The notes under the pieces are model-generated. The model was not told the DNA's origin, searched no databases, and was given only the letters and a program-made list of their open reading frames with translations. From positions 1 through 34,774 of IMG/VR virus record IMGVR_UViG_3300025466_000108: DNA of 34,774 bases, one strand, 5' to 3'. This DNA comes from a virus. The translations under genes and the position numbers were made by a program. Below are positions 20,104-23,697 of the stretch, one piece after another. Position 1 is the stretch's first letter. Each line of letters opens with the position of its first letter.

Positions 20104-22590
20104 TTATCTAACACTTACGTTAGGATTCAATTTCTTAGTGGCTCTATGTACTTTACCGCTAGTTTCAAGTAATTCAGCAGTATGCTTGACCATGTCCACA
20201 ACATTCTTATTTAAGTCTACTAGGTCCATGTGCAGATCTTTTAGGGTCACTGTGCCCTGTCTAATTTCATCATGCTGTTGTTGTTTTGGTTGCTCAACTA
20301 CTGCTGGTTTTGGTTGCTCAACTACTGCTTGTTTAATATTGCTGGTAGCGTTGTTCAATCCTCCAACATGTTCCTTTAGATTATCAAACATTGGAGACAC
20401 TTGTTTTTGCATGTCTGATAATGATAACATAGGTGCGGCATTCCATTCTTTGGCCTTGGCTATCATTTCTTTTTGCATTTCACTAGTTGCGTTACCTGTA
20501 GCTTTTTGTAAATCGCTAGTCATAGGTCCAATTGAACGCTGTATGCCCGCAACAAACTCAGGAACTCCAGTAGTTGCAACAACTGCATCTTGTTTTTTCT
20601 TTTCGCTTTCAATTGCCGAAGTCTTTTCAATTTCAGATTGCTTAATTGTTGTTAGTTGTGCTTGACTGCTAGATTTAATTGCTGATTCGTTGTCTTGAAT
20701 CATAGTTTGCACAGCTGATTTCCAGCTAGTTTGAATACTGGATGTTGTTTGTTGAGCAGATTCTTGTGAATCAGTGCCTGCATTTGTACGACTACCAGCG
20801 GAACTGATAGTTGTATTAAACATTTCGCTTAGTTTGCCTATATCAAGATTGCCTGAACTAGACTGATTAGCAGTCATTGATATTGTATTAGATATTAACT
20901 TGCCGATTTGTTGAGAACTAAACACACCCTCTAAATTAGTGCCTTCATTGATTAGAGCATTAACTGGGCCTTTTTCAAACGGTTGTCCAGTCGCTCCAAG
21001 AGTTGTATCTGCACGTGGAACTGGTTGTTTACCGGTAGCAAGCTCTCCGACTAAATTTACCACATCGGCGGCCATGGTAACAGCACCTACGCCAATTTCT
21101 TTTACAGAATCTATAGTTATACTGCCAATGTCTTTAAACAGTGTACCATTTTGTATTGCTCCAGGCAAACGTGTTAACGCTTCAATGCCATTAGCTCTAT
21201 CAACGGCACTGGCCGGAGTGCCTTCTGGTATTACTCCTTTGCCATCAGATGGTTTAACATTTTTAAGTTGATCTATCATGTCTTGGGCAGTTTTTGTTGC
21301 ACCAAAACGTTGATTAATACTATCAATAACTTGTCCTAGAGTAGCATTAAAATCTTTTAGACGAGCATTTGCTTCTACATATAACTCTGTGCTCTTTGCA
21401 CCGGCAGCCTTGTCAATTAACTGCTTGCCTTGTGCATCTTTCATAATCTCGCCATTTTGATCACGCTGAGCAACTAGACCTTTTTGTCTAAATCCAGCAT
21501 CTTCATCGGCAATTTGTCTTGCACGATCCATTGACACATGATACTGATCAGCTACACTCTTAATACTGCTATTGAAATTTTGCGAAGACATATAGACAGT
21601 ACGTGCGGCATCAGCGGCAGCGCCTTCGCCTGTTTGTACCATTCGTCTATAAGTTTCAGTACTCATCTGAGCGGCAACTGCTGTTTCAGCTTGTTTAACT
21701 TGAGCCAGAGCTGATTTACGTTCTTCGTCAGTGTGTGCATTACGCAGATTATTCATTGCGTTTTGTAACTGTGTTCCTGCAGGTCCTAATCCAGCTAGTA
21801 TAGCAATAGTTTCTTTAGTCTTTGCCTGTCCAGTGAATAATTCTTCCCCTACTTTATTCAAGCCTAGGCCTTTTAGTCCCACAGTGGCCTGTTCTAATGC
21901 TTGTTTCTGTTCAGGAGCCATACCTGCTAGTGTGGCCTGTATACGAGCGTTCTTTTGTAGTTCTTGCAGAGCAGATTCTTGCTCTTTACGACTTACACCT
22001 GTTAGCTGTGCAGTCTTGTCCATTTCACTGGCCAATTCAGCAACTGATTGTTGTAGTTTTAGACGTTCTGCATCGTTGTCAAGATTAATTCTACGCTGAC
22101 CAGATATGGTAATTGCCAACAACTCGTTATAGTCTTGAGTTGTATAGCCCATTTTACGCAGACTATCAGCGGCAGTACTGTCACTAAATGACTTGGAAAC
22201 TTGATTAAAGATCTTAGCACTGTCGGTCATGTTACCGCCAAGTGATGTAAAGTTATATTTTCCTTTATCTATAACTTCATTCCACTGATCAGTGCTTAGT
22301 CTAGTTTGATTAATACTGGCACGTAGCCCTATAGCATCGTTATTAAAGCCAATACCTGTTTCAGATGACTTACTCCAAGTAATATAACTTTCGTGTATTT
22401 TATCTTCTAGAGCTTGAAATGCTGCCTTGGGGCTAGTCAGCATTTCGGTGATGTCTGTTCCAAATTTTCTTGACTGACCACTGATGTCAAATCCTTGGGT
22501 AAGACTCATATTACGATTCGTTTGTCGGTGGAGTTCTAGTATTTTCTCTTGAACCTCAAGATTCTTTTGTCTGTATTCGTCTTCAGTCAT
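20104..22590 (-). CDS. Putative tail tape-measure protein (gp29-like role)
   Basis: An 828-residue, mostly helical protein. Residues about 145-250 (LAITISGQRRINLDNDAE, SEMDKTAQLTGVSRKEQESA, ALQELQKNARIQATLAGM) resemble tape-measure proteins of other myoviruses. A mildly hydrophobic segment lies at about 490-525 (IDSVKEIGVGAVTMAADVVN). The C-terminal part is Gln/Ser/Thr-rich with a duplicated PAVVEQPK and a helical end. At about 1.5 angstrom per residue it would specify a tail near 120 nm. Context supports this: it is adjacent to portal on one side and divergent from the gp26/gp51 frameshift pair on the other. No enzyme motif is seen. An alternative is an internal virion protein. The start has a GGGGAA site, and a GATAAATA late promoter lies upstream. 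Confidence 0.65.
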   Translation of the reverse strand: MTEDEYRQKNLEVQEKILELHRQTNRNMSLTQGFDISGQSRKFGTDITEMLTSPKAAFQALEDKIHESYITWSKSSETGIGFNNDAIGLRASINQTRLSTDQWNEVIDKGKYNFTSLGGNMTDSAKIFNQVSKSFSDSTAADSLRKMGYTTQDYNELLAITISGQRRINLDNDAERLKLQQSVAELASEMDKTAQLTGVSRKEQESALQELQKNARIQATLAGMAPEQKQALEQATVGLKGLGLNKVGEELFTGQAKTKETIAILAGLGPAGTQLQNAMNNLRNAHTDEERKSALAQVKQAETAVAAQMSTETYRRMVQTGEGAAADAARTVYMSSQNFNSSIKSVADQYHVSMDRARQIADEDAGFRQKGLVAQRDQNGEIMKDAQGKQLIDKAAGAKSTELYVEANARLKDFNATLGQVIDSINQRFGATKTAQDMIDQLKNVKPSDGKGVIPEGTPASAVDRANGIEALTRLPGAIQNGTLFKDIGSITIDSVKEIGVGAVTMAADVVNLVGELATGKQPVPRADTTLGATGQPFEKGPVNALINEGTNLEGVFSSQQIGKLISNTISMTANQSSSGNLDIGKLSEMFNTTISSAGSRTNAGTDSQESAQQTTSSIQTSWKSAVQTMIQDNESAIKSSSQAQLTTIKQSEIEKTSAIESEKKKQDAVVATTGVPEFVAGIQRSIGPMTSDLQKATGNATSEMQKEMIAKAKEWNAAPMLSLSDMQKQVSPMFDNLKEHVGGLNNATSNIKQAVVEQPKPAVVEQPKQQQHDEIRQGTVTLKDLHMDLVDLNKNVVDMVKHTAELLETSGKVHRATKKLNPNVSVR

Positions 22591-22614: not shown

Positions 22615-22622
22615 TATAAATA
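22615..22622 (+). promoter_or_regulatory. Late promoter TATAAATA for gp26/gp51
   Basis: Exact T4 late promoter consensus TATAAATA on the plus strand, 29 nt before the gp26 start, with a CCGGAG ribosome site between them. Confidence 0.7.
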
Positions 22623-22651: not shown

Positions 22652-23476
22652 ATGGCTACAAATCCCCTAAAGCAGTTTTTTCGACAACCTAAGATTTTCA
22701 TTAAACTACCTTCAAAGGGTATCTTTAACAATCCCGGCACTTTACAAGGCGACTTGGATAAAATGCCTGTATTTGGCATGACCGGTATGGATGAAATCCT
22801 AATGAAAACTCCGGACGCATTATTAAACGGAGAATCAACCGTGCGACTAATGCAAAGCTGTTGTCCATCTATTACCGACGGATGGGATATCAGCAATTTA
22901 GACGTCGATGCGATTCTAGTGGCCATTAGAATTGCCAGCTATGGAAATGAAATGTCAGTTACACACACCTGCACCAGTTGCGGGGAAGAGGGTGACTATG
23001 ATATTAATCTAAGCTCTATGTTAGATCACTTTAGTCGATGTGAATACGAGCCTAAAATTGTACTTAAAAATCTAGTGATCAAAATCAAACCATTGACTTA
23101 TAAAAAGGTTACTGAGTTCAATTTAGAAAACTTCATGCTACAAAAACAGCTAGCACAGCTAGATACCTTAACTGCCGAGCAACGAGATGTAGAAGTACCA
23201 AAAGTATTTGCCGCGTTGGCAGAACTACAGAATAGAATCTTTCTTGAAACTGTAGATCAAGTTGAGTTAGAAAGTACTGTGGTTACAGAACGTAGTTTTA
23301 TTAAAGAATTCTTGGACAACTGCGATCGAGACATATTTGAAAGCATCAAAGAACAAATTGAAGCTAACAATACCCTGTGGAGATATCCAGATACCACGGT
23401 GCAGTGCGCTAGTTGTCAACACGCCGATTCGTTTGCCATACAACTAGACCAATCAAATTTTTTCGTCAAAGCCTAA
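22652..23476 (+). CDS. gp26: Baseplate hub protein, T4 gp26-like (zero-frame product)
   Basis: A 274-residue protein starting MATNPLKQFFRQPKIFIKLP and continuing MTGMDEILMKTPDALLNG and ILVAIRIASYGNEM, the hallmark of the T4 gp26 / T4_baseplate family. Two CxxC pairs (Cys107/Cys110 and Cys252/Cys255) look like a zinc ribbon split across the protein. T4 gp26 is 208 residues. The ribosome site CCGGAG is well placed and the T4-consensus late promoter is 29 nt upstream. The last codons run through AAT TTT TTC, a slippery sequence, and a -1 shift there continues into the gp51-like frame to give a 348-residue fusion. gp26 takes part in assembly of the baseplate hub. Family assignment is firm; the fusion product is inferred. 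Confidence 0.88.
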   Translation: MATNPLKQFFRQPKIFIKLPSKGIFNNPGTLQGDLDKMPVFGMTGMDEILMKTPDALLNGESTVRLMQSCCPSITDGWDISNLDVDAILVAIRIASYGNEMSVTHTCTSCGEEGDYDINLSSMLDHFSRCEYEPKIVLKNLVIKIKPLTYKKVTEFNLENFMLQKQLAQLDTLTAEQRDVEVPKVFAALAELQNRIFLETVDQVELESTVVTERSFIKEFLDNCDRDIFESIKEQIEANNTLWRYPDTTVQCASCQHADSFAIQLDQSNFFVKA

Positions 23477-23520
23477 TTAGATTATCTAATAAGGAAATTG
23501 AAGAATATCTAGTTAGGCTT
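23455..23520 (+). other. Predicted -1 programmed ribosomal frameshift signal (gp26 to gp51)
   Basis: In the gp26 frame the bases read A_AAT_TTT (23455-23461) and, overlapping, T_TTT_TTC (23458-23464); both fit the X_XXY_YYZ rule. Four to seven nt later a perfect 8-bp stem begins, AAGCCTAA (23469-23476) with TTAGGCTT (23513-23520), enclosing a second hairpin TTAGA/TCTAA (23477-23481, 23485-23489). The gp26 stop codon lies inside the first arm. Shifting at either heptamer gives the same junction, NFFRQSL. The following frame has no ATG or GTG before its conserved core and no ribosome-binding site. Confidence 0.75.
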
Positions 23521-23697
23521 GATAAAGAAATACTACAGTACAAAGAAGAATTTTTTAGAATTGGTTGGTACATGCGGGGCAGTATAAATGTCAACGATCT
23601 CTTTGATCGATACACCACTGAAGACATTAAAATTATAAACGATATTATTAAAGAAAATATCGAAGCAACTAAAAATACTCAGATGCCCTTGCTTTAA
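23461..23697 (+). CDS. gp51: gp51-like hub assembly segment, reached by -1 frameshift
   Basis: The 78 codons downstream of the slip site read as a small helical domain with EYLVRLDKEILQYKEEFF, the core WYMRGSINV, and ENIEATKNTQMPLL at the end. This matches a small ORF that follows gp26 in T4-like cyanophages and is annotated there as gp51-like (hub assembly). T4 gp51 itself is 249 residues. Within its own frame the only possible start before the core is a TTG at 23413, deep inside gp26 and without a ribosome site, so translation most likely comes from frameshifting on gp26. Its TAA overlaps by two bases the stop codon of the convergent gene at 23694-24521. Confidence 0.72.
   Translation, partial: FRQSLIRLSNKEIEEYLVRLDKEILQYKEEFFRIGWYMRGSINVNDLFDRYTTEDIKIINDIIKENIEATKNTQMPLL

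Follow-up and report, generated by a model that had tools for sequence, protein, structure and literature searches.

A probable -1 ribosomal frameshift links a gp26-like protein to its extension in an uncultured T4-like large phage: a predicted tail assembly chaperone in short and long forms

The viral record IMGVR_UViG_3300025466_000108 (34,774 bases, here called the window in its entirety) carries a relative of T4 gene 26 whose 3' end is overlapped by an open -1 reading frame, and this raises the question of whether the two frames are read as one protein through programmed frameshifting or are two separate genes. Comparison of sequences favors the first answer. We put at roughly nine in ten the probability that the locus encodes the tail assembly chaperone (TAC) of a T4-like large phage, made in a short and a long form from one gene by a -1 frameshift. 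The features concerned are the following.

20104..22590, minus strand: 828-aa neighbour, tape-measure candidate, divergent and conserved beside gp26 in the clade
22615..22622, plus strand: TATAAATA, resembling a T4 late promoter, about 30 nt 5' of the gp26 ATG, with a presumed function
22652..23476, plus strand: gp26 relative, putative short chaperone form, 274 aa (PF12322 T4_baseplate, PHROG 150, relatives in IMG/VR)
23455..23461, plus strand: overlapping A_AAT_TTT heptamer, in phase, not conserved, probably incidental
23458..23464, plus strand: slip site T_TTT_TTC, in phase with gp26, T6 invariant in phase in 109 unique relatives
23464..23697, plus strand: -1 frame extension, 77 codons and then TAA, starting at the C of TTC that is read a second time, recognized by a frame open in all clade relatives, dN/dS and no conserved start
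23471..23481, plus strand: 5' arm of the putative stimulatory stem, 6 nt 3' of the slip site (A3 columns 14-24)
23508..23518, plus strand: 3' arm of the same stem (A3 columns 51-61)

The window gp26 matches PF12322 above the curated Pfam cut-off (E 3.5e-15) and PHROG 150, 'baseplate hub' (E 4e-18). A protein scan of IMG/VR recovered 52 relatives with 32-100% identity, and the nearest isolates found by tblastn among phage records are the jumbo phages Atu_ph07, Serratia BF, RaK2, 121Q, MIJ3, Phosso, XaC1 and GAP32. The best BFVD matches of its structural model (pLDDT 89) are baseplate hub proteins of T4-like phages. Searched against PDB folds, the model gave nothing significant, the best hit (Z 7.2) being a helical stretch within background, and it matched none of the solved TAC folds; the search for a solved sequence relative returned designed helical bundles only (E 0.03). 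Weak predicted-fold matches (TM ~0.5) were also seen with uncharacterised proteins of phiKZ-like jumbo phages (Erwinia Special G, RP12, phiEaH2), which might possibly be distant chaperone relatives.

The slip site starts 16 bases 5' of the gp26 stop codon (TAA, 23474-23476), and its first base is the third base of a gp26 codon. T_TTT_TT[C/T] was present in all 149 complete frameshift-type loci. Among 109 unique short proteins, which are related rather than independent sequences and which span groups sharing some 20% protein identity, TTT is always the first Phe codon, and the second slip codon is TTC in 107, TTT in one and TTG in one; the codon just 5' of them ends in T in all 109, being any of eight codons for seven amino acids. 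Within the window clade (35 unique members), the fully invariant gp26 codons are one ATG and TTT TTC only, and TTC is the minority Phe codon there (77 TTC vs 302 TTT). Judged by these counts, conservation of the T6 run in this phase is far beyond chance. The earlier note had pointed to two overlapping heptamers in the gp26 frame; both are indeed present, but only T_TTT_TTC is conserved. The codon preceding TTT TTC in the window clade is AAT in 23 members, AGT in 8 and others in 4, and A_AAT_TTT was rejected as a functional site, being found only where this codon happens to be AAT.

The site extends well beyond the window clade. In the complete IMG/VR relatives except L018, TTTTTTC starts 10-19 nt 5' of the gp26 stop; 72-77 codons are open in the -1 frame, and the +1 frame is mostly short; L018 (4137) has an in-frame TAA about 100 nt 5' of an intact TTTTTTC slip site, a premature stop put down to sequencing error or a decayed copy. 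T_TTT_TTC was found in 10 of the 11 jumbo phages examined (CM1 has T_TTT_TTT), at all 80 cyanophage loci, in the four phiAS5/Aeh1-like Straboviridae (4/4), and in Rhizobium IC12, VH7D and S-RIM8. The slip site of RL38J1 is T_TTT_TTG.

Downstream of the slip site, the stem was paired in 96% of cells across 16 window-clade members, and 5 of its 11 pairs show compensatory changes in these sequences. None of 500 shuffles reached its covariation score, and sliding the partners destroys the signal. The window segment folds with an MFE of -21 kcal/mol (z -4.8; 0/200 shuffles equally stable), the stem being 10-12 bp long. The 8-bp stem first described, 23469-23476 with 23513-23520, is exact and forms the outer part of this longer helix. 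Stems of other sequence occupy the same place in Atu_ph07 (GGCTCTTTGT/ACAAAGAGCC) and phiAS5 (CCCTC/GAGGG), and a strong stem looked for at the slip-site location was not seen in RaK2 and Hallingskeid. Aligning junctions across relatives, a check that had been suggested at the outset, thus recovered the slip string in every frameshift-type locus and a covarying stem in the window clade, but a stem in only some of the other lineages. Of 54 unique cyanophage sequences (loci L070-L149), 45 carry GGAGG 10 nt 5' of the slip site and 5 more carry GAGGG. The element is built with GAG Glu codons in 50 of the 54, and GAG makes up 28% of the Glu codons of the gene. It is likely a Shine-Dalgarno-type frameshift stimulator, resembling the upstream stimulator of the E. 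coli dnaX frameshift.

The extension itself behaves as coding sequence. The fusion reads ...SNFF-RQSLIRLSNKE... at the junction and ends after 348 residues (stop codon at 23695-23697). Past the gp26 stop, the -1 frame stays open for 73 codons and the +1 frame closes after one. The median dN/dS of the -1 frame is 0.19 (81 pairs), with substitution rates of 0.43, 0.27 and 0.59 at codon positions one, two and three, which indicates that the extension is under purifying selection. Direct search gave no Pfam or PHROG assignment for the window extension. In the window, its frame offers only two potential starts upstream or early on, TTG located 17 codons ahead of the junction and ATG 36 codons past it, and both lack a Shine-Dalgarno match. 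Across the window clade, no start is conserved before extension residue 36, many members having no start there at all, and no Shine-Dalgarno match is conserved. The coordinates and lengths given in the earlier note, including that of the fusion, were correct. Coding selection with no conserved start suggests that ribosomes reach the extension mainly by reading on from gp26.

The least improbable alternative is that a small gene distinct from gp26 encodes the extension, with initiation at a start that belongs to it or by reinitiation after termination at the gp26 stop. Public records do annotate it as a separate ORF, and a conserved start of its own, which would speak against a frameshift, is present in cyanophages as an ATG at +5, just past the gp26 stop; TAATG occurs in the lineage of Ackermannviridae, Vibrio K444 and Pseudomonas Cygsa01. 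No such start or Shine-Dalgarno sequence is conserved in the window clade, however; the conserved residues of the extension begin at the slip site itself, with the R after FF, and the slip codons stay fixed in spite of codon usage. We therefore regard a separate gene as unlikely in the window. In the Ackermannviridae, K444 and Cygsa01 loci (L175 3313, L177 3307, L176 3223 and L067 3309), the heptamer is absent and the downstream domain is kept, mostly with a TAATG overlap, so that separate translation is possible in some relatives. Cygsa01, which lacks the heptamer, belongs to another lineage than the 149 frameshift-type loci. These arrangements suggest that the lineage likely uses coupled reinitiation, so that coupled translation apparently took the place of frameshifting there. 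In PhiSH19, even the ATG of the TAATG overlap is missing.

The same fusion could in principle arise from RNA polymerase slippage on the T6 run, the invariance of which would fit. Six T are nevertheless short for polymerase slippage, and the covarying mRNA stem at the usual spacing and the cyanophage Shine-Dalgarno-like element 10 nt upstream are both stimulators of a ribosomal kind. Moreover, the last base of the heptamer varies (C, T, G), as expected of a Z position. Polymerase slippage thus appears very improbable. A sequencing error or a decayed fused gene, which has the frame change alone in its favor, is excluded for practical purposes, since 149 loci of many assemblies and isolates all show this frame change at an identical position.

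Ribosomal frameshifting at the window slip site is very likely the mechanism. Most ribosomes would terminate at 23474-23476 and release the 274-aa gp26. A minority would pause at the stem just 3' of the slip site and slip one base backward on U_UUU_UUC, both Phe tRNAs re-pairing with UUU, and reading in the -1 frame would then continue into the 348-aa fusion (...NFF-RQSLIRL...). If the two forms act as lambda gpG and gpGT do, the tape measure protein would be coated by the short form and the tail tube protein recruited by the extension. The computed basis of this scheme is the phase and conservation of the slip site, the stem, selection on the -1 coding frame, the lack of a conserved start and the fact that gp26 and gp51 are paralogues; we infer the frameshift efficiency, the functions of both proteins and their partner proteins.

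T4 genes 26 and 51, which are neighbours and divergent, would in this scheme be the short and long forms split into two genes by duplication. PF12322 is matched by both T4 gp26 (E 9e-64) and gp51 (E 4e-52), and the two align weakly with each other; by family membership they are paralogues. T4 gp26 ends in '...GLKEFFELL', just after the FF motif, and gp51 runs past this point into the extension. Over its full length, gp51 is matched by the profile of cyanophage and Straboviridae fusions (99.3%, E 6e-21), and its C-terminus by the corresponding extension profile (97%, E 5e-11). The proposal that the extension is gp51-like holds for these groups, but for the window extension it holds only indirectly: the profile of the window and jumbo phage extensions by themselves reaches 12% against the gp51 C-terminus, and 79% is reached with all extensions pooled. 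In a tree of 46 gp26 domains, from which the RB43 gene adjoining gp51, read as a gp26 candidate, was left out, T4 gp26 and gp51 are sisters (91/59) and stand beside the frameshifting Straboviridae (84/89). With moderate branch support, the tree supports a duplication inside Straboviridae that would have replaced the frameshift and given rise to T4 26/51. We lean slightly towards a wider scenario, in which T_TTT_TTC frameshifting was ancestral to the T4-like and jumbo phage superfamily, including lineages outside the 2022 paper discussed below, the Straboviridae duplication fixed the two products of a frameshifting gene as genes 26 and 51, and the stimulators were swapped, with a 3' stem in the window lineage and a 5' Shine-Dalgarno-like element in cyanophages. 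The locus also allows the replacement of a frameshift by a gene duplication to be put to the test. T4 gp26 and gp51 have for a long time been catalogued as baseplate hub proteins or hub chaperones; our results support the notion that they are tail assembly chaperones, one short and one long.

The abstract of a 2022 paper by Vladimirov, Gautam and Davidson reportedly names genes 26 and 51 and mentions frameshifting in several T4-like groups. As conveyed by the papers that cite it (PMC12846349, PMC10885494), this work (Virology 2022, 566:9-15) identified the tail assembly chaperone genes of T4-like phages, so the earlier note's impression that frameshifting had not been described for gp26/gp51 did not hold. 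PMC10885494 mentions that some T4-like phages do not frameshift but have one gene for the short form and another for the long, and PMC12846349 cites Vladimirov et al. for TAC-N genes with poly-T slip sites in T4-like phages. A T4 review lists gp26 and gp51 as hub assembly chaperones (PMC3004832), and a 2016 recoding review describes G-T frameshifting as widespread 'except T4' (PMC5009743). The main idea being already published for T4-like phages, the window locus adds a lineage to a known strategy. It shares with the T4-like gp26/gp51 TACs the PF12322 family, short and long forms and, in some groups, the -1 frameshift, T4 itself having two genes; it differs in belonging to an uncultured lineage on the side of the jumbo phages RaK2, 121Q and Atu_ph07, in its covarying stem and in an extension of other length and sequence. 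No description of this lineage, of the jumbo supergroup, of the covarying stem or of the cyanophage Shine-Dalgarno-like element was found in the literature consulted, in which the 2022 paper was represented through papers that cite it. In many jumbo phage and cyanophage genomes, the long chaperone form is missing from the annotation and the extension is currently called a hypothetical protein or 'baseplate hub assembly catalyst', which our reading would correct.

That a frameshift joins gp26 to the extension is strongly supported by the comparison, and the lambda G/GT analogy proposed for it fits in that a short protein would be accompanied by a low-level -1 frameshift extension. The window locus differs in the slip site, which is GGGAAAG in lambda, in the lack of any detected sequence or fold relation to the window gp26, and in the divergent transcription of the large neighbour. 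Lambda gpG and gpGT are absent from virions and are believed to bring the tail tube onto the tape measure (Xu, Hendrix, Duda 2004; PMC5009743). The TAC locus of Adele and other Vandenendeviridae (PMC12846349) likewise has a conserved -1 frameshift on poly-T, located where TAC-N ends, and a downstream ORF that is usually annotated separately; its motif is GTTTTT and it belongs to other phage families.

The 828-aa neighbour had been proposed as the tape measure protein. It adjoins gp26 in nearly all clade loci with flanking sequence, its relatives are annotated as virion structural proteins, and the annotation of the RaK2 copy rests on similarity to a tape measure protein. This gene lies upstream of gp26 and is divergent in the window clade and in most jumbo phages. 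The frameshift pair is directly upstream of a 623- or 657-aa gene in phiAS5 and VH7D, and in Rhizobium IC12 it is followed by one small gene and then a 642-aa gene; pair before large gene, as in these three phages, is the usual TAC/tape-measure order. Position and length variation agree with the proposal, but comparing profiles with T4 gp29 and with the VH7D and phiAS5 tape-measure candidates gave no match, and the neighbour therefore stays a candidate. Its length in the window clade ranges from 601 to 964 aa, a variation that resembles that of tape measure proteins. Between this gene and gp26, TATAAATA, the T4 late promoter core, is present as the single exact copy in the 34.8-kb window, vs 4.4 expected by chance.
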